A DNA stretch of 28,603 nt, taken from positions 1 to 28,603 of IMG/VR virus record IMGVR_UViG_3300033571_002325; one strand, 5' to 3'. Positions 1 through 21,603 of this stretch are shown here, piece by piece. The notes below the pieces were generated by a model. It ran no database searches. It saw only the letters and a program-made list of their open reading frames with translations, and had not been told where the DNA came from. This DNA comes from a virus. The translations under genes and the position numbers were made by a program. Within the stretch, counting starts at the first letter, position 1. Each line of letters starts with the position of its first letter.

Positions 1-1791
<1,791 letters not shown>

Positions 1792-5826: not shown

Positions 5827-6168
5827 TTAAAATGGGACGTTGGCGGGCTGAATAAATGTTGCCTTACAAGATCCGTTGCCTGCCGTCTGTACGACTTTTG
5901 CATACTTCGGGATGCCAGTAAAAGTGCTCTGAAGAGAGCCGCTTTTCGCAGACAGATCGGTCAAAGGAACCCAAGTCATCGATCCAGAAGCGACAGGATT
6001 TGTCGGATCATTTGGATCATCAAGCGTCGAATAAACCGTGTAAGTGGCTGTACCGGTCACGCTAACCTGAATGGAGATCGGAGCAAAAGCATAAGCGTCA
6101 AAAAACACCCAGCTAGACTCAACGTTTCCCGCACTCGCATCGCTTGTCGAAACAGTAATCGGGCGCAT
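5827..6168 (-). CDS. Small beta-rich structural protein
   Basis: 113 aa, ATG preceded by GGAG at 7 nt. The start overlaps the previous gene's stop by one base (TAATG), indicating translational coupling. The protein is Thr/Ser-rich and beta-predicted: ISIQVSVTGTATYTVYSTLDDPNDP is followed by a conserved WVPLTDL and IPKYAKVVQTAG. Proteins with the same N-terminal MRPITVS and GTATYTV-x-x-T-x-DDP pattern occur in many phage structural operons without an assigned function. The fold could be an immunoglobulin-like head or neck decoration. No catalytic motif. Confidence 0.65.
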   Translation of the reverse strand: MRPITVSTSDASAGNVESSWVFFDAYAFAPISIQVSVTGTATYTVYSTLDDPNDPTNPVASGSMTWVPLTDLSAKSGSLQSTFTGIPKYAKVVQTAGNGSCKATFIQPANVPF

Positions 6169-6365
6169 TAGACTTCTCCACCGTGGCGTTTATGAAGCTT
6201 TTTAAGCGTCATCGCCAAATTAGCACGTTTTGCCAGCGTTGGGTTATCGCTATGTGAAGCTTTCTGTAGCTTTTTGGCAGAAATATTTTCACCTTCCGGA
6301 GTATGAAGCGACTTACGAAGAGAACCTTTGTTCTTAATCGCGTCCTGAATCCACTTATCGCTCAT
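6168..6365 (-). CDS. Small basic protein of unknown function
   Basis: 65 aa, starting at the ATG at 6365, which has GGAGG five to six nt upstream; an in-frame extension to 6395 lacks a ribosome site and would run into a hairpin. The sequence MSDKWIQDAIKNKGSLRKSL with a C-terminal LAKRANLAMTLKKLHK resembles short basic phage proteins seen near capsid genes. It ends in KRHGGEV, a variant of the GG tag found in several larger proteins here. I do not know its function; a virion-associated or DNA-binding role is possible. Confidence 0.65.
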   Translation of the reverse strand: MSDKWIQDAIKNKGSLRKSLHTPEGENISAKKLQKASHSDNPTLAKRANLAMTLKKLHKRHGGEV

Positions 6366-6384
6366 TTCACCCTCCGAAATAGGA

Positions 6385-6410
6385 GTTAGCCCCACCTAAG
6401 CGGGGCTAAC
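6385..6410 (-). terminator. Terminator-like hairpin after the 117-aa gene
   Basis: A perfect 9-bp inverted repeat (GTTAGCCCC / GGGGCTAAC) with an 8-nt loop lies 8 nt beyond the stop of the gene at 6418. On the minus strand it is followed by TCCTATTTC, only partly U-rich. It may be a leaky terminator or an mRNA-stabilising stem just ahead of the next ribosome site. Confidence 0.5.
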
Positions 6411-6417
6411 TGATCTA

Positions 6418-6771
6418 TTACTCACCACGTTCCATCTTGCCGCCGGGGCGGTTCGTGATGTTGGCGGCAGTCGAGAGCGGGCCACCCGAAGCGCGCTTCG
6501 CACGGTCAAGGCGAGCATGCGGCTTCGCGCCCGAAGCGCAACCGCCGTCCTTCTTCGCCTTCTTTTCCATCTTCTCTTCCATGCCTTCCGACATCTTGCC
6601 GCGACCAAAAAGACCGACTTTGCCGCCCTTCTTGAACTTGCCGGTGCGCTCTTTGGCTTCCTTCACGACATTGCTGTCGCCGCCAGCATACACCATGCTC
6701 GGAGCAGCGTCCGAAACGTTCTTGCCTTCTTCAACATTGCCGCCAGTGGCGCGAGTTGTACGACCCTTCAT
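6418..6771 (-). CDS. Basic GG-tag protein, unknown function
   Basis: 117 aa. I start at the ATG at 6771: AAAGGA lies 8 nt upstream, whereas the ATG two codons earlier would be only 2 nt from it. The protein is highly basic and low-complexity. It carries five GG tags: ATGGNV, YAGGDS, FKKGGKV, KKDGG and RPGGKM. The exact hexapeptide KKGGKV also occurs in the 396-aa and 1109-aa proteins. A Lys/Met/Glu-rich helix (GKMSEGMEEKMEKKAKK) sits in the middle. It lies between the 146-aa protein and a hairpin. It probably belongs to the virion or its assembly because of where it sits, but I recognise no domain. Confidence 0.65.
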   Translation of the reverse strand: MKGRTTRATGGNVEEGKNVSDAAPSMVYAGGDSNVVKEAKERTGKFKKGGKVGLFGRGKMSEGMEEKMEKKAKKDGGCASGAKPHARLDRAKRASGGPLSTAANITNRPGGKMERGE

Positions 6772-6793
6772 TGTCATATTCCTTTAATTTAGA

Positions 6794-7234
6794 TTAACCG
6801 TTCGAACCTTGGATATACTGGACAACCAGAACACCCACGCCGCCTGTACCCGCGCCAGAATCAACCCAAATCTGGACGTCTGTCGTGCCAACAAACCAAG
6901 CCGAAGTCGTAGTCGTCGGAGCAACAGAATAAATTCCAGCTGCTGACAGTCCGCTAAGACTACCAAGCTGATTCGCAGCAGACGTTGTTCCAATGCTAAG
7001 AGTCGTAGTCGTACCCCAAGCAGTCGTAACAAAAAGGCTGATCGAAAGGATCGTGCTATTTGCAGGAATAACAACTGATGTGCTCGTAGCACTTGTTGTC
7101 GCAGCCTGAGTGATAGCAACAGACTGAGCCATAACAGCCGAACCGACATTGGCAATGTCAGAACCGGGCGTTGTGCCAGTTGTATTCAGGATATTTCCGG
7201 CCTTGATGGGGCCGGTAAACGTCGTTGTACCCAT
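6794..7234 (-). CDS. Conserved small structural protein (Thr/Ser-rich, beta)
   Basis: 146 aa. The ATG at 7234 is chosen because AGGAGGT lies 7 nt upstream and because MGTTTFTGPIKAGNI is the usual N-terminus of this family; a longer frame reaches 7267 but has no ribosome site. The sequence is Thr/Ser/Ala-rich with alternating beta pattern (TSTSVVIPANSTILSISLFVTT) and ends VLVVQYIQGSNG. Proteins of this type directly follow the major capsid gene in many uncultured phages and are annotated as structural or hypothetical. It begins a new unit after the capsid terminator, with a roughly 90-nt untranslated leader. A minor head or neck protein is likely. Confidence 0.7.
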   Translation of the reverse strand: MGTTTFTGPIKAGNILNTTGTTPGSDIANVGSAVMAQSVAITQAATTSATSTSVVIPANSTILSISLFVTTAWGTTTTLSIGTTSAANQLGSLSGLSAAGIYSVAPTTTTSAWFVGTTDVQIWVDSGAGTGGVGVLVVQYIQGSNG

Positions 7235-7320
7235 GTTACATACCTCCTGCACTAGGTTTCGCCCCATCGTCCGTGCAGTGTCTGCCGGGCCAGTCGAGGG
7301 GGCTAGATGCCCGGATTGTT

Positions 7321-7360
7321 TTGATAAAATTCGCCGCCCACCAGATCGATGGGCGGCGAA
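7321..7360 (-). terminator. Rho-independent terminator after the major capsid gene
   Basis: A perfect 11-bp GC-rich stem (TTCGCCGCCCA / TGGGCGGCGAA) with a 9-nt loop starts 8 nt after the capsid stop codon. On the minus strand it is followed by TTTTATCAAAA. This is the clearest intrinsic terminator in the window. It separates the capsid pair from the downstream genes. Confidence 0.85.
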
Positions 7361-7368
7361 CTATTTCG

Positions 7369-8283
7369 TTACGACGTCGGGAACGAGCCGTAGATCGAAC
7401 GCCAGTTGTAGTAGCCGAAGCTGTAACGCTCGTAGCCCTTAACCAGCAGGTTGTCAGTCGTGAAATCGACCTGCATGTCCATCTCGTACGGGACGCGTTC
7501 CATGTAGACCAGACCTTTGATGTTGGTCAGCAGGAACCAAGCGTAGTTCGACGTCAGGAAGTCCATGACCATATAACCTTCCGGCAGACCGCCAGCGGTT
7601 GTATGGATAGCGTTGACGTCGTTGTCCGCCGTGCCGGGACGCAGTTCGGTCTTGGTCAGGCGGATCGCAACCGGCTCAAGAGACGGCGGAACGATCAGCT
7701 TGCGACCACGAGCGAACATCTTCAGGCCAGCGATGTCCTTGAAGTTCTGACGAATCGAGACCATCGCGTTAAGCAGGGACGATTCGTTCAGATCAACCTG
7801 AACAGTCGGCGTGTTCGGGATCACCGCGCCGTCAATCGGGTGATTGAGCGAGCAGAGAGCCTGACCGTCGCCACCGACCGACGCGTTATACGTCTGAGCG
7901 GTGTTGAGGATGTTCGCGCCGTAAATTTCCTTGGTCTGACCAAACGATTCGATCAGGCCGAGGTTCGTCGGCGTAAACTGTGTCTTGTAGAGGTTGTCAT
8001 CAATCGCCTTACGAGTGATCGCGTAGCCGAGACCGATCTCGTAGTGCTCCTGATTATAGACATAACGCTCGCTGGCGTTATTGTCGAAGCTGACCGCACC
8101 ACCTTCAGTCTTGATCGCGGCAAGACCGAGGTAACGCATTTCAGCGGTGCGCTCCAGCGCCATGTTGGACTTGGCCTTCTCAAAGACCTTATCCCACTGC
8201 GACGGAATCTGAGGATACTTACCCTCTACGCCACGCAGACCCGGCAAAAGCAGGTCGCGAATGGCACTAAGATTAACTGCCAT
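7369..8283 (-). CDS. Major capsid protein
   Basis: 304 aa, ATG with AGGAG about 10 nt upstream. It matches the Mu gpT-like / HK97-fold major head subunit pattern. The N-terminal part has helical leader sequence and RYLGLAAIKTEGGAVSFD. NLGLIESFGQTKEIYGANILN (about 107-127) forms the long helix region. The segment GRKLIVPPSLEPVAIRL followed by LRPGTADNDVNAI (about 193-226) is the strongest signature, then GLPEGYMVMDFLT and AWFLLTN (about 232-254). No separate protease or cleavable delta domain is evident. It follows a decoration-like protein by 15 nt and ends at a strong terminator, as expected for a highly expressed capsid unit. It assembles the icosahedral head with the upstream scaffold. Confidence 0.92.
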   Translation of the reverse strand: MAVNLSAIRDLLLPGLRGVEGKYPQIPSQWDKVFEKAKSNMALERTAEMRYLGLAAIKTEGGAVSFDNNASERYVYNQEHYEIGLGYAITRKAIDDNLYKTQFTPTNLGLIESFGQTKEIYGANILNTAQTYNASVGGDGQALCSLNHPIDGAVIPNTPTVQVDLNESSLLNAMVSIRQNFKDIAGLKMFARGRKLIVPPSLEPVAIRLTKTELRPGTADNDVNAIHTTAGGLPEGYMVMDFLTSNYAWFLLTNIKGLVYMERVPYEMDMQVDFTTDNLLVKGYERYSFGYYNWRSIYGSFPTS

Positions 8284-8298
8284 AGTAGCCTACTCCTT

Positions 8299-8922
8299 TT
8301 AGATGCCAGTGACCGCGCCGTTCGAGCGCAGCATTTCGTTGTTGAAGCCGACAACAACATAGTTGTAGTTCGACGTCGGATCGGTTCCGTTCGCACCCGG
8401 CGGATCAAGAACCATGTCAACGATCTGGAACGGGAACGTGGCGGTTGTGCCAACGGTGTCCAGATACATGCCAGACTGCTGCGTCAGAGCAGAGCCTGTG
8501 CCGATGTTGAGCTGGGCAAGCTGACCAACGGGGGACGACGAAAAGGCCGTCGTCGTGCCAGTGATCTGGAACGAAGAACCAGAGGTCTGGACGACAAAAC
8601 GGGCGTTCGGATCATCGATGACATAGGCGATAACGTCGCCCGTGGCATCGCTGCCCGGCCAATACTGCGACCAAACAGTGCGCTTCTGCGAAGTTGACAG
8701 ATACTGACAACCCCAGAAAATACCGGCCAGCGGAACCGCACCAGCAGTCGCCTGCTTGATGTAGCCGTTAGCGCCCGGCGAAGTAACAGGGACGACGGCA
8801 TCGCCCTTGTAGATGGCAGTAGCGTTCGTAGAAGCAATCCGGCGTGTCGAAAGGCGCCAGTTCATCGGCCCATTCGAAGTATTTACCGGACGGAAGCCGA
8901 AAGGCGCAAAAGTATTGCTCAC
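8299..8922 (-). CDS. Putative head decoration / capsid-associated protein
   Basis: 207 aa. The start is a GTG at 8922 with a very strong AAGGAGG site 6 nt upstream. MSNTFAPFGFRPV at the N-terminus is characteristic of a conserved phage protein found next to major capsid genes. It continues with GDAVVPV, GIFWGCQYLS, RTVWSQYWPGSDATGDVIAYV and DDPNARFVVQ. The beta-rich composition with no helical leader suits a capsid decoration protein. The strong ribosome site and its position as first gene of the capsid unit suggest high expression, as needed for a stoichiometric head component. The decoration role is inferred from family annotation and context, not from a visible motif. Confidence 0.72.
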   Translation of the reverse strand: MSNTFAPFGFRPVNTSNGPMNWRLSTRRIASTNATAIYKGDAVVPVTSPGANGYIKQATAGAVPLAGIFWGCQYLSTSQKRTVWSQYWPGSDATGDVIAYVIDDPNARFVVQTSGSSFQITGTTTAFSSSPVGQLAQLNIGTGSALTQQSGMYLDTVGTTATFPFQIVDMVLDPPGANGTDPTSNYNYVVVGFNNEMLRSNGAVTGI

Positions 8923-9040
8923 GGCCTTCCTCCTTATCCTAGAGTGAAGTCGCGAACCGCTACAGCGCGTAACAGTCTTTAGACGATGATGTTGAGAAGC
9001 AACTCAGCGCGAATTGCTAAAATTTCGGGTCCACCCCGAT

Positions 9041-9059
9041 GTTTGGTGAGACACCAAAC
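9041..9059. other. Perfect 8-bp hairpin
   Basis: GTTTGGTG and CACCAAAC flank a 3-nt loop. There is no U tract on either side. It could be an RNA processing or stability stem, or an operator. Confidence 0.5.
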
Positions 9060-9073
9060 TCTATGTATCAAAG

Positions 9074-9100
9074 ATTTTATCTACTCAGCGCGAGTTTCAA
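9074..9100 (-). promoter_or_regulatory. Possible sigma-70-like promoter for the capsid unit
   Basis: On the minus strand TTGAAA (9100-9095) and TAAAAT (9079-9074) each match five of six consensus positions. The spacer of 15 nt is slightly short. One copy of the 11-bp direct repeat lies inside this spacer. It would direct transcription into the decoration and capsid genes. Confidence 0.3.
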
Positions 9101-9158
9101 ATCATCTAAGATACAAATTCTAAATTTTCTAATGCTCCTTGAGCAATGTGCGACATGC

Positions 9159-9218
9159 TCTCAATTTTTTATATTGAGAATACGGCGCTTCCGGAGATTA
9201 TTGACCGAAAGCGCCGTA
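9159..9218 (-). terminator. Two adjacent stem-loops after the 176-aa gene
   Basis: The first stem met by transcription is at 9218-9181: ten perfect base pairs (TACGGCGCTT / AAGCGCCGTA), a mismatch, then three more. It is followed at once by a 7-bp AT stem at 9179-9159 (TCTCAAT / ATTGAGA) with an A-rich loop on the minus strand. The first stem begins about 20 nt after the upstream stop. The lack of a direct U run argues against a classical intrinsic terminator, so partial termination or RNase processing are alternatives. Confidence 0.45.
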
Positions 9219-9237
9219 AAAGCAAGCCCTTTGTTAA

Positions 9238-9768
9238 TTATTCGTTCGGAACGTCAATCGGAGCGCGTGTTTTTGAGAACCGATTGACCTCACGACGGCC
9301 AAGATCGCCAGCGCGACCCTCGCGCATCTGCGATTCTTTGGTCAAAACCGCATCACGCGCAGCGCGGCGCTCTTCCTCACGAGCCTCCTGCGTAAAGAGC
9401 ATCGGACGCTCCATAAGAACTAGACCGCCCACCTCAATGGTGTCGCCCTTCCAGCCGCGCGGCATCAATTCCGGATGGCGAGAAAGCGGAACCGGCTCCC
9501 AACCGTTCATTTCGTTCTGGCGAATGCGGTCAATGTCGTCCTGATTCATCACCGACTTCAGTTTCCACTGATAATCGAAGCCATCAGGCGGGTTCGGAGC
9601 CCAATATTTATCGCGCTCCGTCCCCTGAAGGTCCGGATTGCCGCGAAGCTGGCGAATACGAGCTTCTGCACGAGCCATAGACTGCTCTTTGGTCTCGCGG
9701 CCAGCGCCCGTAGAAGTAGCAGAACGCGCTTCACGCGTCCGCGCTTCATTATTTGTTTCAGTAACCAT
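9238..9768 (-). CDS. Conserved phage protein between scaffold and capsid genes
   Basis: 176 aa, ATG preceded by AAAGGA at about 9 nt. A charged N-terminus (Arg/Glu/Ala) leads into a conserved core: DGFDYQWKLKSV, NQDDIDRIRQNEMNGWEPVPLSRHPELMPRGWKGDTIEVGG and LMERP. The C-terminus is a charged helix (AREEERRAARDAVLTKESQMREG). The core pattern, with GW-x-PV, RHPE and LMERP, is familiar from uncharacterised proteins at this same position in many metagenomic phages. The location between the scaffold and capsid genes suggests a role in head assembly, for example an accessory scaffold, but no activity can be read from the sequence. Confidence 0.68.
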   Translation of the reverse strand: MVTETNNEARTREARSATSTGAGRETKEQSMARAEARIRQLRGNPDLQGTERDKYWAPNPPDGFDYQWKLKSVMNQDDIDRIRQNEMNGWEPVPLSRHPELMPRGWKGDTIEVGGLVLMERPMLFTQEAREEERRAARDAVLTKESQMREGRAGDLGRREVNRFSKTRAPIDVPNE

Positions 9769-9795
9769 GAATATATTCCTTTAAGTGCGTTTTGA

Positions 9796-10782: not shown

Positions 10783-10794
10783 AGGAAGCGCTCC

Positions 10795-11211
10795 TTAGTA
10801 AACGAGATCCGGATGGCTCACCCGGCAACGGATGTGAATGTCATTAACAACACGGCAATCAACAACGCTATCTCTCGAAATGCGCGATTTCATCGTGTTT
10901 AACTGGAAAGGCCAGCCATCTGACGGCCTAAAGACAACCCAATCTCCGACATTAATGTCTCGGAATTTGTTGCCCTCTTCATCGACATAAGCAGTTGTGC
11001 CAAGTTTTAGGATTAGGCCAACTTTGCCCTGCCAACGGGATTCTTCTCGCGTTGCGTCCGAAAGGATAATTCCGCTCTTTGTCTTTTCCGGCGGAATATA
11101 CAGAGCAACTAAAACATCACTACCGAAAATCTCTACGCCTTCTAACTCTCCGACTTTATCCAAGAGCGCGGCCTTGGGATCAGTCTCATGATTCATTTCT
11201 ATCGCGGGCAT
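10795..11211 (-). CDS. GroES-like co-chaperonin
   Basis: 138 aa, ATG at 11211; an internal ATG five codons in is also possible. The core fits the GroES fold. GSDVLVALYIPPEKT (about 30-44) corresponds to the first strand. KSGIIL (45-50) matches the mobile loop with its hydrophobic tripeptide IIL that contacts GroEL. ESRWQGKVGLILKLG follows, then VGDWVVFRPSDGW (88-100). It is longer than bacterial GroES (about 97 aa), with extra N- and C-terminal segments. No GroEL gene is in the window, so it would work with host GroEL or one encoded elsewhere, probably to fold the capsid protein. T4 gp31 is the classical precedent for such a phage co-chaperonin. Its place just before the scaffold gene supports a head-assembly role. 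Confidence 0.85.
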   Translation of the reverse strand: MPAIEMNHETDPKAALLDKVGELEGVEIFGSDVLVALYIPPEKTKSGIILSDATREESRWQGKVGLILKLGTTAYVDEEGNKFRDINVGDWVVFRPSDGWPFQLNTMKSRISRDSVVDCRVVNDIHIRCRVSHPDLVY

Positions 11212-11217
11212 CGCGAC

Positions 11218-11427
11218 TTACCTTTCTTCACGTTTAACACCAAGGATATCTTCATTGACATCTTTGGCGATTGCGAGAGCATCTCGCAAACCCTTTATGA
11301 CACCGACCCGGAACCGCATGTCCGCCCAATCGATGGCTCTTCCAGTGACTAACTCAGCAGCATGCTTTTCGAGTTGTTCACCAATCTGCTTTTCAATTTC
11401 TTGAAGGCAGCGAAGATCTAAATTCAT
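11218..11427 (-). CDS. Small helical protein of unknown function
   Basis: 69 aa, ATG at 11427 with a strong AGGAG six nt upstream. It is fully helical and charged: MNLDLRCLQEIEKQIGEQLEKHAAEL, then VGVIKGLRDALAIAKDVNEDILGVKREE. Short proteins ending in GLR-x-AL-x-IA-x-x-x-NE-x-ILG are often encoded beside the GroES and scaffold genes of related phages. It is separated by 6 nt from the GroES start, so the two are probably translated together. Function unknown; an assembly cofactor is a guess. Confidence 0.68.
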   Translation of the reverse strand: MNLDLRCLQEIEKQIGEQLEKHAAELVTGRAIDWADMRFRVGVIKGLRDALAIAKDVNEDILGVKREER

Positions 11428-11446
11428 TCGCTCTCCTGTGTGGGAA

Positions 11447-11472
11447 AGCCCCCGATCTATTGACCGGGGGCT
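11447..11472 (-). terminator. Terminator-like hairpin after the 396-aa gene
   Basis: An 8-bp GC stem (AGCCCCCG / CGGGGGCT) with a 10-nt loop lies 7 nt after the stop at 11480. On the minus strand it is followed by TTTCCC, a short U run. It precedes the ribosome site of the 69-aa gene and probably reduces read-through. Confidence 0.55.
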
Positions 11473-11479
11473 AATTTAT

Positions 11480-12670
11480 TTAGACGCTTTTACCTTTGGT
11501 CGTTCCAGCGCCGTAAGCATCAATCTTCTGCTTGCGACCAAAACCACCGCCAGAGCCGAAGTCCATGGCCGGATATTCACCCTTACGACCGGGCTTCTTA
11601 TACGGAACCTGAACCGCACCGCCATCTTTGCGCATCATCGGGGGCTGAGCGCCGCCCATCGGGGGCATACCACCCATCGGGGGCATACCGCCCATCGGGG
11701 GCATACCGCCCATCGGGGGCATACCACCCGGAGCGCCAGCCATCGGCGGAGGCGCGGGCGGCATCATCGGAGCGCCGCTCGGACCCGGAGGCATACCAGT
11801 CAGAGGACGAACGCCAGCCTGCTGATCCTGACCCTGATCCTTGCCAAGGTTGAAGATCATCACAGTCTTGCTGTCCTTGCCCTGACGACCGTCTTTACCA
11901 GCATCGGACATCAAAGGACCACCAGCATCACGCTTCTTGCGCGCAACGCCGCCCTTTTTCATGGCGTATTCGCCGCCACCAAGATTGCCCTTTTTATATT
12001 CGTCGGGCGAAATATAACTGCGGCTAAGCTCGTTCATTGCCTTTCGCTCTTCGGGGGAAATAGCCGAAGAACCAACCTTGCCACGGTTCTTGCGCAGACG
12101 ATCCTCGGACTCAAAAATTTCATCTTCCGGAGGAAGCGCGCCACCATCGTCCTTGTACGTACGACCGCCTTTTTTCAGACCTTTCATGGACTGCTGCTTG
12201 TCGTGCTTTTCATCAAGCTTAGAGTGTTCCCACTTCTCAAGCTTCATACCGTGCTTCTTAGCGAGTTTGCGATCTTCGGCAAGATCCTTCTTGGAGTGTT
12301 CCCACTCAATCTCGCTAACCTTGCCGCCAGCCTTACGAACAGCAATATCCGGCTTGTTGTAGGTCAGCTGCTGCTCAGTTCCTGTCGGAATCTTGCCAGC
12401 GCGAGCGCCGCCACGCGGGGCCTTGTCCAGACGCTTCAGGCTGTCCGCACCAACGACCTTACCGCCCTTCTTACGCATAATGCGCGGCATCGTCTCTTTC
12501 GAGAGTTCCGGCTCTTTATCAATCGGCTTTAGGCCGCGCTGCTCATTCGTATTGAGAGCATCAAAGCCAGCCCAATTCTTAGCTTTGCCAGTGTGCTTCT
12601 CATCAGCACCATAAGCTTTTAGCTTCTTCTCGTGCGACTCTTTCGCCGCCTTATGATATTCATGCGCCAT
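11480..12670 (-). CDS. Basic repeat protein with GG tags, probable virion component
   Basis: 396 aa, ATG with AGGA about 9 nt upstream. It is very rich in Lys, Gly, Pro and Met with no hydrophobic core of a normal enzyme. It has GG tags at RKKGGKV (67-72), RKAGGKV (112-118), LKKGGRT, MKKGGVA, RDAGGP and RKDGGAV. Two related copies of EWEHSK / KWEHSK (about 122-151) are separated by DLAEDRKLAKKHGMKL. Residues 219-241 carry the block YISPDEYKKGNLG-x-x-EYA that also occurs in the 1109-aa protein. A GGMPPM repeat (about 316-340) follows a Pro-rich stretch. Similar proteins occur beside portal or scaffold genes of metagenomic phages without known function. A DNA-contacting or internal head protein would fit its charge. 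Confidence 0.7.
   Translation of the reverse strand: MAHEYHKAAKESHEKKLKAYGADEKHTGKAKNWAGFDALNTNEQRGLKPIDKEPELSKETMPRIMRKKGGKVVGADSLKRLDKAPRGGARAGKIPTGTEQQLTYNKPDIAVRKAGGKVSEIEWEHSKKDLAEDRKLAKKHGMKLEKWEHSKLDEKHDKQQSMKGLKKGGRTYKDDGGALPPEDEIFESEDRLRKNRGKVGSSAISPEERKAMNELSRSYISPDEYKKGNLGGGEYAMKKGGVARKKRDAGGPLMSDAGKDGRQGKDSKTVMIFNLGKDQGQDQQAGVRPLTGMPPGPSGAPMMPPAPPPMAGAPGGMPPMGGMPPMGGMPPMGGMPPMGGAQPPMMRKDGGAVQVPYKKPGRKGEYPAMDFGSGGGFGRKQKIDAYGAGTTKGKSV
11655..11726 (-). repeat. Four 18-bp tandem repeats coding GGMPPM
   Basis: Four consecutive 18-bp units, cccatcgggggcatacc followed by a or g, differ only at the final wobble base. They encode Gly-Gly-Met-Pro-Pro-Met repeats. The near-identity at DNA level indicates recent expansion by slippage or unequal recombination. 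Confidence 0.95.
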
Positions 12671-12776
12671 AATTTTAAGTCCTATAGGATAAACCCATTA
12701 AGCGAAGCGCTCGCCCTTTGGAGCGAAATTCTGGTGGCCAACCAGAATTGAAAAAATCGACTCGGCACGAGACGAA

Positions 12777-12804
12777 AATATAAGCAAGGTTATTCACCCC
12801 GCAA
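12777..12804 (-). promoter_or_regulatory. Weak candidate promoter upstream of the 396-aa gene
   Basis: In the 178-nt gap between two genes the minus strand has TTGCGG (12804-12799), a 16-nt spacer and TATATT (12782-12777). The -10 matches five of six bases but the -35 only three. The same gap also holds a perfect 9-bp stem at 12727-12749 (AATTCTGGT / ACCAGAATT). Confidence 0.25.
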
Positions 12805-12808
12805 AGAC

Positions 12809-12843: not shown

Positions 12844-12848
12844 TGAAG

Positions 12849-15800
12849 CTACTTTTTACGCTGCGCGGCCCTCATGTTATCGACCAAATTTGGATATGGC
12901 CGTCCTGCCGCTTTTGCCGCCGCTTTTGCCGACTTCTTTTGACCTTTGCTCAAAGCTTCCGGCTCACCCAAATCTTTAGGACGTTTCTTATCCCAAACCT
13001 TGCCGCCTTCAGCTATTTTGAGAGCACGATCCACAGCGCCACCGTCACTATGACAATTCCAAGCTCTAAGAGACTTGTTAATACGACTGTCTGGATCATT
13101 GGCCGTCTCACTGCTGGTCAACTTAGACTTCATGCCCTTCATGCGAGAGCAAAACGACTTGCGGCGCGCAGCATCTTTGTCCGTCTTAGGATGCGGAGCC
13201 GGTGGCTTCAGGTCATGGCCTTCCGCCTTGGCGGACGCACGTCCCTTGGCGTTTAGACCACCTTCAGGGTTCTGGCCTTCCTTGCGTGTCCAAGCGCCGC
13301 CACCAGCCTTAAGGCTCATGTCAAACACAGGATCTTTGTCGATCTTTGTGTTGACGCGACCGCCTTTGCGTTTTGCAATGCGGAGAGCTTTCTCAACGTC
13401 TTCTTCTGTCGGTTTAACGACGCCGCCTTTTTTAAAGCCGGGGCCATACGCCAGAGTTCCTGTAAAGTTTGTCGCGGTAGGGGGCGTATATCCAGTGACA
13501 GACGAAGGATTATACGAGCCAATAGAGTTGTAAACAGGGCCATAATTTCCATAGCCCTCTATCTTGCCCACATACTGATTTGGACCCAAATAGCTCGGGC
13601 TATGGATACCGACGCCAGTCATTGGATCCCACGTTATTGGCGTGAATTGTCCAGTGATCGGGTCAATGTGACTAGAATAAGCGGCGTTAGCTCCAGCCAT
13701 TGCATCAGTAAAGGCTTTATTGAATTGACTCATGTCTGTCATGCCCTGCGGCGTCCACTGCCCCGGCAAACCAGACTGCGTGACCGACCCAACGCTTGTC
13801 CCGGACATACCGATAGGCGTTCCAGTGGGATTTGACATTGTGCCTACGCCAGTGGCGGCTGCTGCTCCTGACGCGGCCAAAGCTTCCATAACGTTTTTAT
13901 CTGGCAGAGGCATTCCGCCGGGCGCAGAAGGTATTGCAGCCATCAAATGCGCCGGTGGATTTGGGTCCCAACGATTTATTGCCGCCAAGACCTTGTAGTT
14001 GTTTACCTGACTCTGCCAGTTCGCCATGGCGTCTTGATATTGCTTCTGTAGCGCCTGCCAATCAGAAACTTGTTTTTTATAAGCATCAATCGCGCCCTGC
14101 TGCTGAAGCTCCTGCGGAGTATACTGCTGCTGAAGCTCCTGCGGAGTATACTCTGGATAAGTATACTGCTTTGTCATTTCTGGAAGCTTGTTGTTGTCCC
14201 ACTGCGGCATGGGCGGAACTTGCGGTCCAACGTTTGCCGGCGGGCTAAACGGATGTCTACCGTTTCTTACCTCATTAGCAACGTAATCGGCTTCAAACTT
14301 CTTGCGGGCGTCACTTGCCGATCTCCATTGATCGAACTGTTGACGATATGTCTGATACGCAGTCGCAGTCTTGGCCTCATTAGAATTTTTGATGAAGTTG
14401 TCGATATCGGACATTTTAACTTTGCCCGAGGAAAGCTGACCAAGCAGATTTTTCAATCCTTGATCGCTAGGAGCCTGATGCAGATATTTGTCATAAATAG
14501 CATTGATCTGCTGAATCCATGCCTGTGAGGATTCTGTTTGTGTTTTAGGTGCTGTCCCCGTTGCACCCGCAAATTGTATGCCGTCTTCCGGCATAGTGAA
14601 GACGCCAAACTGTCCACTTTTAGGTATCGTGCGGAGTGCCGCGACTTTGGCGGCTACGGCAGGACCGTGAGTATTAATACCACGGAAAATGCGGTCTTGT
14701 GGGGTCTTACCTTTTCCATGCTCTAATTTATCTTTCATATAGACAACCGCGACTTTCGCCGCGATTTCCGGATTCAACAACAAGTCTGGATTTTCCTCCA
14801 GTTGGGTTCCAAGCCCAGCCTTTTCGCCGTAATCACGATAATTTGCGCGTCCCGTAAGCTGAATGTGTCCGCGCCCACGGTAATTGTAGCCATCATCCCC
14901 ACCTTTATTGCCTGCGGAATGGGCATACACACGATTGAAGAATGCGCGGTCATCTTTCTTCAACCGCTCTAGTTCTGCGTCAGGTATTTTCCGAGTTTGC
15001 GGAAGCGCGCGGTGGATATCTTTAACCTTGGTTCCAGAATAAGAATTTTCTGATTTGGGTTTAAAATTTGATTCTCCTTGAACAGCCGCAGCCATAATAT
15101 TTCGAATTTGTGGATCCCTAATGTTATAATAATTCAGCGCGTCAATAAGAGTTGATTTTCCGCGATTGACTAAGTCAGCCACTGCGTCCACGGCTCCGGA
15201 AGCCACTTTACCGGCTGTGTCCACAGCATCGGATAAGTATCCTTCAGCAGTCTGCGCGCCAGCTTGTTCAAATTGTTTCGGGAATGTCTTTTCTAAAAAT
15301 CCGGCCCAATCTTGATTGTTTCCGAGTTGTTCTTGAGCAGCTGCAAGCTGCTCTGGTGTCGCCGTTTTACCTGTAAAATCTTGATACATTCGGTTTATGT
15401 CTTGAACGTTCAGACCTTCATCTGAAGCAGTAAAAGAGCCCACCATATCGGTAAGATTTAAACCGCCCTTTGCTTGATTGGTCCAATAATCCAAGCCCTC
15501 CTTATCAGGAGCGCGGCCAAGGGCCGTTTGATAAAGTGCGTTTATCGCTTGTGTAGGGTTGTCTTTGTATAGGCCCTGAAACTCTTTAGAACCAGCAAAC
15601 TGCTGGAGAACATCGGCCTGACTTATGTCGCCATTTTCAAGCTGATTAGCCCAATACGCCACGCCTTCTTTATCTGGCGTCCTACCCATGATGTTTTTAT
15701 ACAGAGAGTTAACATAATCAACCGTAGATTCTTGCGGTGTATTAGACTGATCAACAACCGGATTAGACGTGTCTAAACCGGTATCGCCTCCTGTCGCGTA

Positions 15801-16178
15801 ACCAGCGCGTCCACCCGTGGACAATGCATACTCTTTACGCCCTAAGTTGCCTTTGCGATATTCCTCTGGGGAAATATACCACATTGGGTCCTTGGGAGAA
15901 TCCATTCTCTTATAAAAGGGCGTCGTGTTAATAACGTCGCGCTGATCCCAATATTCTTTTGACCCAACTTCCGGCGCGGCTTTAGGCGCGACTGGAGGCG
16001 AGACTTTGCCGCCTTTTTTATAACCATCAGCCAAATGCGGAAACTCAGCGTCAAGATCATTAAGCAATGACACCGCATCCTTATGCGCATCTACAGAATT
16101 GCTCGTAGGGCGCTCGTATGTCGGAGCCTTCTTCTGGGTGGCCAGACGAAGAGCGTTGTCGATTGCTTTGTCTTTCAT
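12849..16178 (-). CDS. GH19-type lysozyme/chitinase-like virion protein with DUF4214-like repeats
   Basis: 1109 aa. The N-terminus has a short helix IDNALRLA, the tag KKGGKV (54-59) and the block YISPEEYRKGNLG (101-113). Two clear DUF4214-like repeats follow at about 153-200 and 207-250 (YVNSLYKNIMGRTPDKEGVAYW and its partner), with weaker copies at 260-300 and 557-600. Residues about 345-520 form a GH19-like hydrolase: AAAVQGESNF with Glu369 as likely catalytic acid, then YNYRGRGHIQLTGRANY (431-447), NPDLLLNPEIAAKVAVVYM and GINTH. A Gln/Pro-rich region (660-760) and Gly/Ser-rich linker follow. The C-terminus has tags FKKGGVV, KRKGGRV, AEGGKV and the module KSFCSRMKGMKSKLTS with SRINKSLRAWNC, resembling a small domain of other phage proteins. 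It probably opens peptidoglycan during entry. Confidence 0.82.
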   Translation of the reverse strand: MKDKAIDNALRLATQKKAPTYERPTSNSVDAHKDAVSLLNDLDAEFPHLADGYKKGGKVSPPVAPKAAPEVGSKEYWDQRDVINTTPFYKRMDSPKDPMWYISPEEYRKGNLGRKEYALSTGGRAGYATGGDTGLDTSNPVVDQSNTPQESTVDYVNSLYKNIMGRTPDKEGVAYWANQLENGDISQADVLQQFAGSKEFQGLYKDNPTQAINALYQTALGRAPDKEGLDYWTNQAKGGLNLTDMVGSFTASDEGLNVQDINRMYQDFTGKTATPEQLAAAQEQLGNNQDWAGFLEKTFPKQFEQAGAQTAEGYLSDAVDTAGKVASGAVDAVADLVNRGKSTLIDALNYYNIRDPQIRNIMAAAVQGESNFKPKSENSYSGTKVKDIHRALPQTRKIPDAELERLKKDDRAFFNRVYAHSAGNKGGDDGYNYRGRGHIQLTGRANYRDYGEKAGLGTQLEENPDLLLNPEIAAKVAVVYMKDKLEHGKGKTPQDRIFRGINTHGPAVAAKVAALRTIPKSGQFGVFTMPEDGIQFAGATGTAPKTQTESSQAWIQQINAIYDKYLHQAPSDQGLKNLLGQLSSGKVKMSDIDNFIKNSNEAKTATAYQTYRQQFDQWRSASDARKKFEADYVANEVRNGRHPFSPPANVGPQVPPMPQWDNNKLPEMTKQYTYPEYTPQELQQQYTPQELQQQGAIDAYKKQVSDWQALQKQYQDAMANWQSQVNNYKVLAAINRWDPNPPAHLMAAIPSAPGGMPLPDKNVMEALAASGAAAATGVGTMSNPTGTPIGMSGTSVGSVTQSGLPGQWTPQGMTDMSQFNKAFTDAMAGANAAYSSHIDPITGQFTPITWDPMTGVGIHSPSYLGPNQYVGKIEGYGNYGPVYNSIGSYNPSSVTGYTPPTATNFTGTLAYGPGFKKGGVVKPTEEDVEKALRIAKRKGGRVNTKIDKDPVFDMSLKAGGGAWTRKEGQNPEGGLNAKGRASAKAEGHDLKPPAPHPKTDKDAARRKSFCSRMKGMKSKLTSSETANDPDSRINKSLRAWNCHSDGGAVDRALKIAEGGKVWDKKRPKDLGEPEALSKGQKKSAKAAAKAAGRPYPNLVDNMRAAQRKK
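14097..14150 (-). repeat. Perfect 27-bp tandem duplication
   Basis: Two identical 27-bp copies (14097-14123 and 14124-14150) encode the nonapeptide YTPQELQQQ twice within the Gln/Pro-rich linker of the 1109-aa protein. Perfect identity points to a recent duplication. Confidence 0.95.
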
Positions 16179-16188
16179 GATGTCACCA

Positions 16189-19100
16189 TTAATCCCCGGA
16201 GCGCTCTCCGCCGATAATATTCAAATCTTCACGCAAACGTTTTAACTCAGGAAGATGCCCGGCCCCTGCTACATAAACCCCAGAAGGAGCATTCAGCAGG
16301 AATTGGTTTCTGGAATCCTCTGTTTTCTTGGCAAGTTTACCAAGTTTATTGGGATATTCCAACCAATTTTCAGGCCAAGTCAGACTCTCGCCGGTCTTAA
16401 AGAACTTTTTCAGATTTTCTTTGGTCGCCGGAAGTTGAGACATTTTTAAAAGGTCAACGTCATTTTCACTGCCAGCTTGAAGGAAATCCCTCAAAGCTTT
16501 TTCATCATACCGGCGATCTTTGAAGTATTTCATCTTATCCTGATTGGAAATCAGGCTGGACATAATCGTCTTTTCTGGAGAGACGAAAGTTTCGTGAGGT
16601 TTATTGACGTCAACATTTGAGAACATTGGCGTCAAATACTCAATCGGATACCCCTTGACACTTTTGGCATGGAGATCATCCCAAGATCCATTGTATTTGG
16701 GCAAAAAATCCTTGTTCTGATCAATATCCCCGCCTGTTCCCTCATAATAAGCGCCGTGCTTATTGGCGATATCTTGGATTTTTTGCTTCAAATCATCAGA
16801 AAGCTCGGCCTTTTGGCCATGCGGAGAGCCGATTATGACTTTTTCGTCACCAATAAAAGTCACGCCATATGGGGCAGAGCCTCCTTCAGCGTAACCCTTT
16901 CTTTCTGGCCAATCTTGATCCGGAGACCATTCAGGATATTTATCTTTCCCAAGCTCAAAGAACGGTGATTTGCCTTCACTTGTTCTGCGCTTCGCGGCTT
17001 CATAAGCACGCTGATCAACGTCTTTTGAAGGAGGCGCTTCAAGCCTTTCTGCCATCATGACGTTAGCTAAGTCATCTTTATCAATTCCTTCATAAATTGA
17101 AGGATAAGAAATGTCGCGCTCAGCCGAATATTCGCTGACAATATGATCACCTTGAGACAAAGGACCACGGAAACCGATGCCTTTCGACTCTGGAGAGTCT
17201 AATTCGCCGGTTTTTTCGTTGTAGCGTTGACCATATGGCAAGCGCATCGGCAATTCTTCGCTCTTTGGATGCGAAATTACGCTCGGCGCGACGTCAAAAT
17301 CGAATAATTTCTCGAAAATCGTCGGACCACGGCCATTTTGGCGCGCTTTTCCCTCATCCTTCGCCAAAATAGCGCCCGCCGCCACTGCCGGAACTTCAGA
17401 TCCAGCAATTTTCCATAAAGTTCCCGGAACACCAGTGTAATTGGCAGGATTAGAAGGATCTTGCTGTATAAATTTGGCAGCTTCATAAGCATCTAAAGCT
17501 CTTCCTATCGGCGTCGTCTCAGGCGTTGCATACAACGGCAACGTCTTCTGCCCATAAGCCAGCTTCAAAGCCTTTTCAATCGCCGGATGATACTGGTAAG
17601 GCACCGAAAATAGCTCTTTTTTGCCGCCCAAAAGCGGAGCATCAAGAACCACGGGCCGACGTGGAGCTTCCGGCTCTTCCGAACCAATAAATTCATGCGC
17701 ATGACGCGCCATTTGATAACGACGGATCTCCGGATCGTCGCTCAATTCCTCCGCAGGAGGCATAATCTTCAATCCGTGAACAGGTTCCTGCGTCTTGCGA
17801 TTAATTTTGAAGGAGCTACCGCCATCGGCGCGGGTCAAACGCTCGGCAATCGGCAATCCGCGCTTTGTGATCTCGTTTAATTTGTCGGAAACTGCGCCGC
17901 CGCGTTTGTAGCCGTAGAAAAAGTAGCCTTGGTCCTTCAACCTTTGCTTATATTTCTCGCGCATGGACGGCGTAATATGAGCCCAATAACCCTCGACATC
18001 GCCTTCATGGCGTCCTTTTGGTAAAACACCAGCATAAACATTGGGTTTTTCGCCAAAATAATGCTGAATAATTCTCTTTAATTTTGCGGGCTTCTTTTCT
18101 TCATACAGAGACCGATAGCCTTCGGCACCAAGCATAAAATTCTTAGATTGAATTTTGCCTTCCATCTCATCTTCAATCTGTTTGGCCATTTTTGACCCAA
18201 CAATTGAAGACAGTGGTTTGTCTCTGAAACGACTGACGGAAGAATCAACGACCATGAGCTGCGTTTTGCCGTTCTTTGTGACCGGCTGAACGTTTAAATG
18301 TTCTTCGGAATTGGAATTAACAGGTTTGACGTAGACTGTTTTTTCGTTCCCGCCTTCATCTAAAATAATTTTAGGTTCGTCATATCCTTTGTCTACTATT
18401 TGATTGTAATAATCTTGGGCATCTTTTTTATTATTAAAAGTTTCAGTCGAGCGATAACCGTCATTATCAATAAAACTGACTTCATGTTTTGATGGAATTT
18501 CCCAGCGAATATGATCAACCGCCTGTCTAAAGGAATCTGTATATCGACGCGCATGTTCCTGACTGCCGGGAATAAAAACGCGGTCATAATCGCCTTCAAG
18601 AGCCTCTTGAAGCATGCGCTTAACGCCAAGATCAATATGTGCGTCATCGCCAACATAAGGAACAGTTGACACCATCCCACGCTGCTCGGGAATTGCTTCT
18701 ATTTTGCTCTGCAATTCTTCAATACCCGCATGATGAGCAGCATTCATCTCATCATATTTTTTATTATAAATAGTCTTTAATTCTTTTAGCTCAGGCTCAA
18801 TCTTAGAAAAGATTGGGCTATACGCTCGGTTGAACTCATCCGTATCGCTTTTAAGCTGTTTTGATTTATTAAATTTTTCCCACAGAGGCCCAACCTCTGG
18901 CTTGATTTTATCGAAAATTTTGGCTTCTTCTGCTTCCTTCCAGTCACGAAGAGCATCGGCAGCTTTTCTGCCGCTTTCAACATGCTCATCAAGCTGACTC
19001 AAAAGATTACGACGCTGACGATCAATGATCGGATCAACGCCACCATGCTTGCGGATTTCAGACGCCCAATCAGACTGCTGCTCTTCATCTGACAGGACTT

Positions 19101-21603
19101 TTAATTTCTGTCCGGTTTCAGGATCGGTGATTTCACGATCCTTGAAGCGCGATTGCGTTATCGGATTTCTGACACCGGGGCTGTGGGGCTCATGCTCAAA
19201 AGATGCGCCTCCATAAACGGGAGCATCTTTAGCACGCAAAGCTTGAGATTGAGCTTCATACTCAGCATGAAGAGCAGGACGTTCATTTCGCGCCATCTCA
19301 CGATATTTATTTTCTTCTTCAATAATCTGCCAAGGTTTCTGAGACGCCTCAAGCCATTCAAATGACAAACCTAAAGCGTTGGCCATTTTCTCCGGATTCT
19401 TTTTAGCCTCTTCGTCTACAATCTTTTTAAACAAATTATCGCGCTTTTGGGTCATTACATCTAAAGGAGTATCGACACCCGGCTGAATTCCATCCTTTCT
19501 AGATTTTTCCCAAGACTCCATTAATTCTGGATCATCATACATTTGCTGAAGACGTTCCGCCTTCATTTTTTCTAAAAATTCGTTGACACTAGCCTCATGC
19601 TCAGAGTCCATGTTCCAAACATGCTCTTGCTGTGCTTCAATTTTAGCATTTAAATCAGCAAGTTTCGTATCATATTCATTCTGAAGCGACGGATGAATGC
19701 CTTGAACATCATTTTGATGTGGAAGCCTTAACGTAGAAATGCGATAATTTTCTCCGCCCGGAGTGGAGTAGCTTTCATAATTTGCTGGATTTAATTCGCC
19801 AGACTTACGAGCCGCTTCGTATGCATCATTATAAGCGGCGTCCGCCTCTCTTGTTTTGTTGTTTGCGTCAACAAATTCGTCCATAAATTTATGAAGAAAC
19901 TGCGGTGTTTCATTGTAAATATTTTTGGCTCTGTCGCCACCCGCATATAAAGCATTAACAACTCTTGAAGAATGCAAATTAGGATCTTTGTTTAAATCGC
20001 TATTTACAAAACGATCAACCATAGTCAAAAGATTTGCATGGGCGTTAGATGCGTTGTCCGAAGCAACGTATGTCGCTTCTTCTAAATCTTTAATTTCTTT
20101 TGGAACATACCCAAATTTAACGCGAGACACCTGCGGAAACGCGCGCTTGAATTTATCGGCAATCTCTTCTCTCGTCACAACCTGCTCAGGGGCATAATCA
20201 AAGTCAGCCCACTTCATTTCTTCAGGTTTAACAGCGCCAAGTTTTTGATCAACAAGCTTAGCCTGCATGTTCGCCCAAGTATCGCTCTCCGGCAAAAATG
20301 TATGAGCCGCTTCATATCCACGAGAGGCCATGCCAATCGGATTTAAATGAGGTTTAAAATCCGGCAACGGATTAATAACTTCATTCGGCTTAGGAACTTC
20401 CGTCGCCGCCGGACGCATGGCGTCGTATTTAGGCTTCTCTTCAATATTCCACTGATGATGAGGACTATTATACTGGTCGCGCTTGCCGCCGCCCTTGGCC
20501 CAATCTTCAACCATCGCAGCCAAAGACTGCTTTTTAGTCAACTGCGGAGCAGCCTCGACAGCCGCCTCAACCACGGGCGCAGCTTCACGAGCCGCCGTAG
20601 CAGCCTCACCCGCAACCTTCGCAGCCGGAGCAATCGACGCAGCAAACTTAAGAGCCAAAGGCAATTTAAGCGCAGCGCCAGCAGCAGGGCCAACAAACGG
20701 AATGGCATAAGCAACATCACCAGCAGCGCCCAAAGTTTTTAGCGCAGCAGAGCCATAATGCTTGTTCTTAATGTCCTCCTTCACCGAAGGTTCAAATCCA
20801 CCTTCAGCAGTCGGAAACTTACCAGCAGCAGTCACCAATCCAGAGCCGGGCGCAAAACCAGCCCCCATCAAACCCGCGCGCTTTCCCGTCAATATTCCAG
20901 CTTCAGGATCATACTGCTTCGCAGATCCTTCCAACTCTTTCTTGATAAAGTCTTCCTGCGATTCCTCTTCAGGAACACCCTCAACAGACCCATCCGTCGC
21001 ATAACCGCCTCTGTTAAATTGCATGCGGCTGGGAACAGTCTCAAAGTCAGGATCTTCAACGCCAACAGTGCTTCCGGGCTCAGCGCGGTCTGCAAAAATC
21101 TGCGCCTGCTCTTCCTCATTCCCCGGACTAACAATCGCAGCGTCCTGCTCAACGCCATCACCATTGCGAGAAACAACGGCATTTGGGCGAACGCCCTGAG
21201 CAAAAGACTGTTGCTGTGCTTCGCCTTTCGGCTGCACATAATCAAGAAGCTTATTCAACTCGCCATTACGAACCGCACTAACAACTTTATCCTGATCAAT
21301 CTTCTTAGGATTGAAAAAGATCTGCCCTTCCCTTGTTTGAACAACCTTCATCTTGGGAGGAACAACAACATTTGGAGAAGCATTAGAAACAAAAACAGCA
21401 GACCGTTTGCCTTGAACGAGCTGCTGTAATTGAAGACCCAAAGTCTCCGGACGTTCGGGAACCGTTTCAGGCTCTCCCGTCGTCAACGGAGTTTCAACCG
21501 AACCATCCGTGGCATATCCACGTCGAGCAATTGTCTGATGATAACGAATAGGTGTCTTAATTCGCTGCGCCAGATTTAATGCGTCTTTAATGGTCCGGTT
21601 CAT
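16189..21603 (-). CDS. Giant virion-associated protein with polyvalent-type domain
   Basis: 1804 aa, ATG with AGGA 8 nt upstream. The N-terminal helix IKDALNLA is followed by two GYATDGSVE tags (29-37 and 200-208). A hydrophobic Ala/Gly segment at about 285-330 (AGDVAYAIPFVGPAAG) could cross or enter a membrane. Long charged helices fill about 560-790. Residues about 795-1230 carry, in order, EEQQSDW (840-846), VKRMLQEALEGDYDRVFIPG with QEHARRY (994-1021), LSSIVGSKMAKQI (1131-1143), GAEGYRSLYEEK (1159-1170) and ITPSMREK (1210-1217). This series matches a domain known from very large phage and plasmid polyvalent proteins. Tags KRGGAV, RADGG and AEGG follow, then an unrecognised C-terminal domain with a KYFKDRRYDEKALRDFL segment. 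Ejection with DNA into the host is the likely role; the biochemical activity is unknown. Confidence 0.78.
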   Translation of the reverse strand: MNRTIKDALNLAQRIKTPIRYHQTIARRGYATDGSVETPLTTGEPETVPERPETLGLQLQQLVQGKRSAVFVSNASPNVVVPPKMKVVQTREGQIFFNPKKIDQDKVVSAVRNGELNKLLDYVQPKGEAQQQSFAQGVRPNAVVSRNGDGVEQDAAIVSPGNEEEQAQIFADRAEPGSTVGVEDPDFETVPSRMQFNRGGYATDGSVEGVPEEESQEDFIKKELEGSAKQYDPEAGILTGKRAGLMGAGFAPGSGLVTAAGKFPTAEGGFEPSVKEDIKNKHYGSAALKTLGAAGDVAYAIPFVGPAAGAALKLPLALKFAASIAPAAKVAGEAATAAREAAPVVEAAVEAAPQLTKKQSLAAMVEDWAKGGGKRDQYNSPHHQWNIEEKPKYDAMRPAATEVPKPNEVINPLPDFKPHLNPIGMASRGYEAAHTFLPESDTWANMQAKLVDQKLGAVKPEEMKWADFDYAPEQVVTREEIADKFKRAFPQVSRVKFGYVPKEIKDLEEATYVASDNASNAHANLLTMVDRFVNSDLNKDPNLHSSRVVNALYAGGDRAKNIYNETPQFLHKFMDEFVDANNKTREADAAYNDAYEAARKSGELNPANYESYSTPGGENYRISTLRLPHQNDVQGIHPSLQNEYDTKLADLNAKIEAQQEHVWNMDSEHEASVNEFLEKMKAERLQQMYDDPELMESWEKSRKDGIQPGVDTPLDVMTQKRDNLFKKIVDEEAKKNPEKMANALGLSFEWLEASQKPWQIIEEENKYREMARNERPALHAEYEAQSQALRAKDAPVYGGASFEHEPHSPGVRNPITQSRFKDREITDPETGQKLKVLSDEEQQSDWASEIRKHGGVDPIIDRQRRNLLSQLDEHVESGRKAADALRDWKEAEEAKIFDKIKPEVGPLWEKFNKSKQLKSDTDEFNRAYSPIFSKIEPELKELKTIYNKKYDEMNAAHHAGIEELQSKIEAIPEQRGMVSTVPYVGDDAHIDLGVKRMLQEALEGDYDRVFIPGSQEHARRYTDSFRQAVDHIRWEIPSKHEVSFIDNDGYRSTETFNNKKDAQDYYNQIVDKGYDEPKIILDEGGNEKTVYVKPVNSNSEEHLNVQPVTKNGKTQLMVVDSSVSRFRDKPLSSIVGSKMAKQIEDEMEGKIQSKNFMLGAEGYRSLYEEKKPAKLKRIIQHYFGEKPNVYAGVLPKGRHEGDVEGYWAHITPSMREKYKQRLKDQGYFFYGYKRGGAVSDKLNEITKRGLPIAERLTRADGGSSFKINRKTQEPVHGLKIMPPAEELSDDPEIRRYQMARHAHEFIGSEEPEAPRRPVVLDAPLLGGKKELFSVPYQYHPAIEKALKLAYGQKTLPLYATPETTPIGRALDAYEAAKFIQQDPSNPANYTGVPGTLWKIAGSEVPAVAAGAILAKDEGKARQNGRGPTIFEKLFDFDVAPSVISHPKSEELPMRLPYGQRYNEKTGELDSPESKGIGFRGPLSQGDHIVSEYSAERDISYPSIYEGIDKDDLANVMMAERLEAPPSKDVDQRAYEAAKRRTSEGKSPFFELGKDKYPEWSPDQDWPERKGYAEGGSAPYGVTFIGDEKVIIGSPHGQKAELSDDLKQKIQDIANKHGAYYEGTGGDIDQNKDFLPKYNGSWDDLHAKSVKGYPIEYLTPMFSNVDVNKPHETFVSPEKTIMSSLISNQDKMKYFKDRRYDEKALRDFLQAGSENDVDLLKMSQLPATKENLKKFFKTGESLTWPENWLEYPNKLGKLAKKTEDSRNQFLLNAPSGVYVAGAGHLPELKRLREDLNIIGGERSGD

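Follow-up and report, generated by a model that had tools for sequence, protein, structure and literature searches.

A glycine-glycine and short-helix peptide tag shared by cargo and ejection proteins in a group of freshwater phages, and its possible use as a head-loading label

Why would several unrelated proteins of one phage carry the same short glycine-glycine (GG) peptides? The question is raised by IMG/VR virus record IMGVR_UViG_3300033571_002325, a phage contig that we analysed over its whole 28,603 bases (the window) and in which nearly every gene lies on the minus strand. On the coding strand the order is terminase, tRNA-Thr, portal (780 aa), p237, p1804, p1109, p396, p69, GroES, scaffold-like p328, p176, p207, capsid (304 aa), a cement-like protein, p119, p75, and connector and tail proteins; we call "cargo" the proteins encoded between portal and GroES. 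An earlier note on this DNA had reported the hexapeptide KKGGKV in three unrelated proteins, more GG variants (KRGGAV and two copies of GYATDGSVE in the giant p1804, and HGGEV ending p75), and the short helices IDNALRLA, VEKALRIA, VDRALKIA and IKDALNLA beside such tags or at the extreme N-terminus. All of these are present, KKGGKV exactly so in the 119-aa, 396-aa and 1109-aa open reading frames (ORFs), and the giant holds a further helix, IEKALKLA. The observation holds and reaches further than first noted. Apart from T4 and a few models, little is known to our knowledge of how accessory proteins are chosen to enter the head and be injected, and an open-literature search returned no description of such a tag.

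We compared the window with about 160 related loci, ten whole or near-whole viral records and about a dozen named genomes from phage collections, these related sequences being not fully independent of each other. Portal kin include Pelagibacter phages HTVC027P and HTVC023P, Roseobacter phage CRP-901, Caulobacter phage RW and Planktothrix phage Pag-Yong1, with the Manatee Spring phage MW202675 as the nearest portal relative (41%); the tag-bearing phages are a freshwater group. One complete relative, G006 (L164-L166), has a 127-base direct terminal repeat.

Within-protein shuffles, which keep composition, revealed an excess of the pattern [KRD].{0,1}GG[KREA][VA] that is clear in p396 (5 against 0.18 in shuffles) and p1109 (5 against 0.16) and weaker in the other window proteins, namely p1804 (2 against 0.17, p=0.02), p119 (2 against 0.14, p=0.02) and the 75-aa ORF (once, p=0.007). 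For the two small proteins, homologues support later starts, giving 117 aa from the second start of the 119-aa ORF and 65 aa for the 75-aa ORF. Across homologues the tag exceeded shuffles 7.6-fold in p119, 5.6-fold in p75, 4.4-fold in p396, 2.7-fold in p1109 and 2.4-fold in p1804, with terminase, GroES, capsid, connector and tail families at about 1-fold or below; the 2.6-fold value of the portal arises because one or two GG lie at fixed sequence positions. The tags form two sub-types, a basic R-x-x-RKx-GG-[RK]-V in p396, p119 and p75 and, for the large proteins, [YF]-A-[DE]-GG-x-V, their tags being often acidic at position -1 (ADGG, SDGG, AEGG); what is conserved among the tags is GG plus a hydrophobic residue, with no further residue strongly conserved. 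At the codon level, the first Gly of GG pairs in cargo genes of all related loci is GGA in 2-5% and GGG in 2% of cases, against 16% and 10% for all Gly codons, which is consistent with avoidance of the Shine-Dalgarno-like strings GGAGG and GGGGG.

Comparison with relatives showed that the short helix lies at the core of a cassette, (GG)-x-[VI]-x-DALR[IL]A-[KR]...(GG). Large proteins of relatives have GG and then the helix at fixed spacing (ADGGAVDDALRIAR, KNGGAVKDALRIAR, ADGGEVKDALRLAK), and other proteins begin directly with the helix, both in relatives (MDENIKAALRIA, MNEDIKYALRIA) and in the window (MNRTIKDALNLA, MKDKAIDNALRLA). Among 129 non-redundant cargo proteins the helix occurs 103 times against 6.8 in shuffles (15-fold), with 27 N-terminal copies, often within the first 5-12 residues, against 0.3, and 46 copies with GG at most 10 residues upstream against 0.6. 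GG begins exactly three residues ahead of the helix in 26 of these 46, and several cargo helices form the extreme C-terminus. Per 10,000 aa, helix density is 13.3 in cargo and 1.5 in 1212 non-cargo proteins of the same loci, falling from 3.5 to 0.17 for N-terminal helices and from 5.9 to 0.06 (100 times rarer) for GG-linked ones. The helix is amphipathic, with a hydrophobic moment of 0.56 against 0.34 for shuffled letters. The comparison that the earlier note had proposed, with non-structural proteins, shuffled sequences and the positions held in homologues, was thus run, and the observation stands.

A search for GGxVxDALR[IL]A, written as degenerate DNA, across 2.9 million viral contigs returned 28 loci, of which 19 lie within cargo proteins of this phage group and the rest are isolated frames, against 3 loci and none within cargo proteins for a scrambled control. 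The shorter ADGGxVxDAL gave 51 matches against 53 for its scrambled control and is too short to count because many matches are chance antisense frames, and the N-terminal pattern MxDDIxxALR[IL]A gave 5 against 1, too few to use. The earlier note had also argued from different KKGGKV codons that the peptide is conserved rather than the DNA. The KKGGKV changes concern third bases only and say little, but the conclusion stands on ALR[IL]A, which has 48 different DNA codings among 52 occurrences, indicating that selection acts on the peptide; a DNA-level repeat as the conserved element is ruled out by the same count. A candidate synthetic-peptide form of the cassette is ADGGAVDDALRLAK. Cargo proteins of a sister lineage (L061, L066, L070, L059) bear another fixed cassette, GGRTLGNNAIDNALRLATGG.

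Tags are also found far from the cargo block. G006 possesses a second block 16-23 kb into the record, its cargo block lying at 47-52 kb, and there a large protein family that matches phrog_4287 "DNA ejection protein" holds 29 GG tags in nine homologues against 9.1 expected (maximum 18 in 500 shuffles). A neighbouring family of this ejection block carries R[AK][AS]GG[KS][VI] 40-55 residues from the end in six of six members, four of which end in a clear helix (PDEAIVKALDLAKDK, PDSHVAHALEIAKDK, PDEAVAQALHLAKDK, PDHVVARALEIAKDK) and two in a diverged one; GG tags in the stabilisation/needle-like family are at background level. MW202675 has the same tagged arrangement next to its "internal virion protein D", and Caulobacter phage RW encodes gp64 and gp66, with the ends LSDDEIKRALGLK and MDGGRV respectively. 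The suggestion that the tag is restricted to genes between portal and connector was therefore wrong, and these tagged ejection proteins are our main reason for reading it as a feature of head-internal, ejected proteins and not of one gene block.

Both large cargo proteins, p1804 and p1109, are built as mosaics from shuffled modules, with tags at the joints. Modules 193-304, 354-1249, 1263-1405, 1448-1573 and 1576-1804 of p1804 recur in other orders in relatives, the last of them being C-terminal in the window, N-terminal in L014, near the N-terminus in L161 and immediately ahead of DUF6321 in L011. In proteins of at least 600 aa, 30% of shuffled-module edges lie within 15 aa of a tag against 14% expected (z 9), and the helix scores z 6.2 at edges against -1.0 for generic amphipathic heptads; GG without a following hydrophobic, PP/PG, SG and KK all stayed at or below a z of about 1.5 in these long proteins. 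The DUF6321 domain (PF19846), matched in p1109 with E=3e-19 and 69.8 bits against a curated cut-off of 28.5, illustrates such a joint, as stand-alone cyanophage and pelagiphage copies (P-SSM2, syn9, HTVC115P, MinM2) end in ...W[NK]C and nearly all copies of the cargo block continue past WNC as WNC-(H)ADGGxV. In one AlphaFold model, the tagged joints have a predicted local distance difference test (pLDDT) below 50, with about 60-79 across much of the domain. The AlphaFold model of p1804 350-1260 was too poor for fold matching (predicted template modelling score 0.24), its fold searches gave no match at E <= 0.001, Pfam returned LpoB (E=0.03) as the sole match on p1804, and a PDB search with the DUF6321 alignment gave none. 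DUF6321 itself occurs in 493 phage records, mostly of cyanophages, either on its own, as a small protein encoded close to the capsid gene, or as the C-terminal domain of a larger one, gp114, encoded close to tail-sheath/terminase genes; an open-literature search found no paper naming it, and the P-SCSP1u structure paper held nothing usable as virion evidence for it.

In our reading, to which we give about even chances, the tags are a docking (cargo-loading) peptide that can be reused on proteins carried within the head and ejected along with the DNA. More tentatively, and with somewhat less than even confidence, we propose that one GG-helix cassette acts as an address label that loads an open-ended set of effector modules, read by p396 or by the ejection complex. 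Gene position and the parallel with ejection proteins suggest that cargo is probably packaged inside the head. The full cassette would comprise a flexible GG, then, two positions on, a hydrophobic residue, the amphipathic helix x-D-A-L-R-[IL]-A-[KR] and often a second GG, placed at the N-terminus, at the C-terminus or at joints of exchangeable modules, each of which would keep its tag as a separate gene or within a fusion. The helix would be the docking peptide and bind a common partner in the assembling head, candidates being the tag-rich p396, the scaffold, the portal and the ejection-protein complex, one member of which has the same helix at its end. GG would be the hinge that lets modules be swapped, fused or split with the label kept, and cutting at GG could coexist with docking, as in T4. 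Among the three roles that the earlier note had offered (head targeting, maturation cleavage and DNA-contacting patches), head targeting is the best supported, with ends, joints and ejection proteins tagged and the capsid, connector, GroES, terminase and tail families not enriched; the interpretation given in that note is partly supported. If the docking reading is true, injected cargo could be predicted from genomes through the tag on otherwise unclassifiable giant proteins, the free shuffling of modules would be explained, and chosen proteins could be loaded into the heads of laboratory phages.

The gene that constantly accompanies the cargo is p396. Its profile was present in nine of the ten fetched viral records and in MW202675, the fetched part of the tenth (G004) stopping before the p396 place, and was absent from HTVC027P, HTVC023P, 023Pt, CRP-901, Pag-Yong1, DSL-LC04, RW and the fetched part of HTVC115P; these eight p396-negative phages have no helix tag at the cargo position. 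Among 45 portal-to-GroES intervals p396 occurs in 42, including 20 of the 20 with large cargo, 18 of which also have the helix. A constant p396 beside variable cargo makes this protein a candidate for the reader, or else one more client; a PDB search with p396 gave no match.

Several observations weigh against docking. p396 also stands where large cargo is absent (22 of the 45 intervals) and is itself tagged, which may make it a client, and its co-occurrence with cargo rests on few independent lineages. In both p396 and p119 the basic GG tag has no helix beside it, and the two tag types may therefore have two roles; HTVC027P and DSL-LC04, portal kin that lack p396, likewise keep some GG tags but no helix. 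Part of the data served to define the helix pattern (and the other search patterns), and the evidence independent of it comes only from the contig-wide scan and the ejection proteins. A search for virion proteomics of these phages returned none.

Among the alternatives, polyprotein processing survives best, although we consider it unlikely. Here a phage or host protease would cut at GG during head maturation, freeing modules and removing helix peptides, much as T4 gp21 removes targeting peptides and the adenovirus and African swine fever virus proteases cut at GG-x. GG flanks the helix on both sides above expectation (within 20 aa downstream in 55 of 97 against 25 expected), cleavage behind GG would yield N-termini resembling the native MxDDIKxALRLA starts and leave DUF6321 near its stand-alone ends, and modules are found fused or separate in any order. 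No C39 match was obtained in any of 17 records, some of them fragments, with control genomes positive; C48 was likewise matched in 0 of 17, but its control also gave no match, and no search was aimed at C5 alone. Nor did G006 show a candidate protease among about 30 proteins by Pfam and 10 by PHROGs, the tags have no strongly conserved residue beyond GG and a hydrophobic, and the internal tags of p396 would imply that it is cut into many pieces. Maturation cleavage as first proposed is possible but unsupported.

A slightly poorer prospect is that the tags are passive linkers, recombination-tolerant flexible joints spread by gene-piece shuffling and having no binding partner. Their place at predicted disordered joints of shuffled modules fits, as do internal helices that retain an apparent fossil start (e.g. 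PMHDDVKDALRIA), which gene fusion would leave. The helix is nevertheless conserved at free N- and C-termini, where a linker is unneeded, the 48 distinct codings of one peptide do not fit a carried-over DNA piece, and other linker-like motifs showed no enrichment at edges. Nucleic-acid contacts, with the basic KKGGKV patches of p75, p119 and p396 binding the packaged genome, are improbable. These three proteins are strongly basic (isoelectric point, pI, 9.8-10.1), and p75 weakly matches fusellovirus VP2, a DNA-binding virion protein. However, the giant is acidic (pI 5.6) and the conserved part is GG, a hydrophobic and the helix, to which the earlier note's DNA-contacting patches are a poor fit, and since many tags are acidic at -1 a DNA patch is unlikely. 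Finally, a compositional accident of K/G-rich disordered phage proteins is barely credible, as p396 and p119 are indeed K/G-rich but the composition-keeping shuffles contradict it, falling 2- to 8-fold short for the tag and 15-fold for the helix.

Returning to docking, the tag may work in a manner like that of two known kinds of loading peptide, a likeness of working and not a claim of membership in either. The T4 capsid-targeting sequence (CTS), of experimentally proven function, is a short N-terminal peptide of internal proteins IPII and IPIII (PMC9958956). The 27 N-terminal helices against 0.3 are similarly common to otherwise unrelated, presumably head-internal proteins, but the tag here also occurs at C-termini and module joints, in several copies and beside GG, and T4 removes its peptide with a prohead protease whereas here GG flanks the helix and no protease appeared among the tested G006 proteins. 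Encapsulin targeting (cargo-loading) peptides, with the consensus SDGSLGIGSLKRS, load diverse enzymes into an HK97-fold shell (PMC8346489); they too are short terminal loading peptides, and ADGGAVDDALR loosely resembles them through D-G-(x)5-[SA]-L-[KR]. Tags here are multi-copy, at joints, and mostly internal or N-terminal, do not follow the SDGSLGIGSLKRS-type consensus, and revealed no homology to it.

The polyvalent proteins of phages (Iyer et al. 2017, PMC5512222) are large, combine several domains, are encoded close to portal/packaging genes and are considered to be packaged and injected. The window likewise has several domains per polypeptide beside the portal (two DUF4214, a GH19-like stretch and DUF6321 in p1109, shuffled modules in p1804), but DUF4214, DUF6321 and GH19-like are not the hallmark enzymes (peptidase, ART, ParB, nuclease), and a term search of PMC5512222 found no mention of glycine or linkers. 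Double-glycine leaders, the substrates of C39 peptidases, also have a helix followed by GG at the N-terminus; here, however, GG also precedes the helix, the carriers are virion-module proteins, and the 17 records gave no C39 match.

Table 1. Positions of tagged proteins, tags and bordering genes (window coordinates unless another locus is named; aa, amino acids of the encoded protein).
Feature	Position	Strand	Remark
Portal protein	22373..24715	-	upstream border of cargo block
Phage GroES-like co-chaperonin	10795..11211	-	downstream border of cargo block
1804-aa giant cargo protein (p1804)	16189..21603	-	modules shuffled in relatives
N-terminal helix tag IKDALNLA, giant aa 5-12	21568..21591	-	
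GYATDGSVE copy 1, giant aa 29-37	21493..21519	-	
RGGYATDGSVE (copy 2), giant aa 198-208	20980..21012	-	GYATDGSVE itself aa 200-208; edge of shuffled module 193-304
KRGGAV tag, giant aa 1233-1238	17890..17907	-	end of shuffled module 354-1249
RADGGSS tag, giant aa 1258-1264	17812..17832	-	start of shuffled module 1263-1405
YAEGGSA tag, giant aa 1571-1577	16873..16893	-	joint of modules 1448-1573 / 1576-1804
1109-aa cargo protein (p1109)	12849..16178	-	two DUF4214, GH19/endolysin-like stretch (290-482), DUF6321 (969-1040)
N-terminal helix tag IDNALRLA, p1109 aa 6-13	16140..16163	-	
KKGGKV, p1109 aa 54-59	16002..16019	-	
TGGRAGYATGG tag, p1109 aa 121-131	15786..15818	-	precedes DUF4214 repeats
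Linker cassette KKGGVV...VEKALRIA-KRKGGRV, p1109 aa 916-942	13353..13433	-	before DUF6321
Linker cassette SDGGAV-DRALKIA-EGGKV, p1109 aa 1044-1061	12996..13049	-	directly follows DUF6321 end (WNC)
396-aa protein (p396)	11480..12670	-	basic, mostly low-complexity, at least 6 GG tags
KKGGKV, p396 aa 67-72	12455..12472	-	
237-aa protein (p237) with DUF4214	21618..22331	-	
Helix tag VMDAMRLA of 237-aa protein	21717-21740	-	not in the earlier note
119-aa basic protein (p119)	6418..6777	-	tags ATGGNV, KKGGKV, RASGGPL
KKGGKV in 119-aa ORF	6616-6633	-	
75-aa basic protein (p75)	6168..6395	-	C-terminal end HGGEV
tRNA-Thr (TGT)	25821-25896		between terminase and portal
RLD[RK]xxR-(x)-GG sites	window 6475-6513; window 12407-12433; L171 10070-10588		

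In p119, p396 and a relative's DUF6321 protein, some GG tags are preceded by a second common motif, RLD[RK]xxR-(x)-GG. The weak p75 match, to Fusello_VP2_Capsid, has an E of 5e-4, below the curated cut-off, and in L071 and L074 a Fusello_VP2-like domain is fused inside p396-like proteins, with GG tags on both flanks. G006 encodes GcrA and a DnaA C-terminal domain, which points to an alphaproteobacterial host; in a GTDB scan the loci were scattered over metagenome bins assigned to many phyla, which gives no basis for a host call. Caulobacter phage RW has a tRNA-Val where the window has tRNA-Thr. Window positions 1-3542 encode two tail proteins that carry long collagen-like GPTGPTG repeats; by eye, the second of them apparently ends in an intramolecular chaperone (S74-like) domain. 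At 4222-4983, flanked by the connector gene and a tail gene, lies what by eye looks like an inserted homing endonuclease (GIY-YIG start, repeated NUMOD-like segments).

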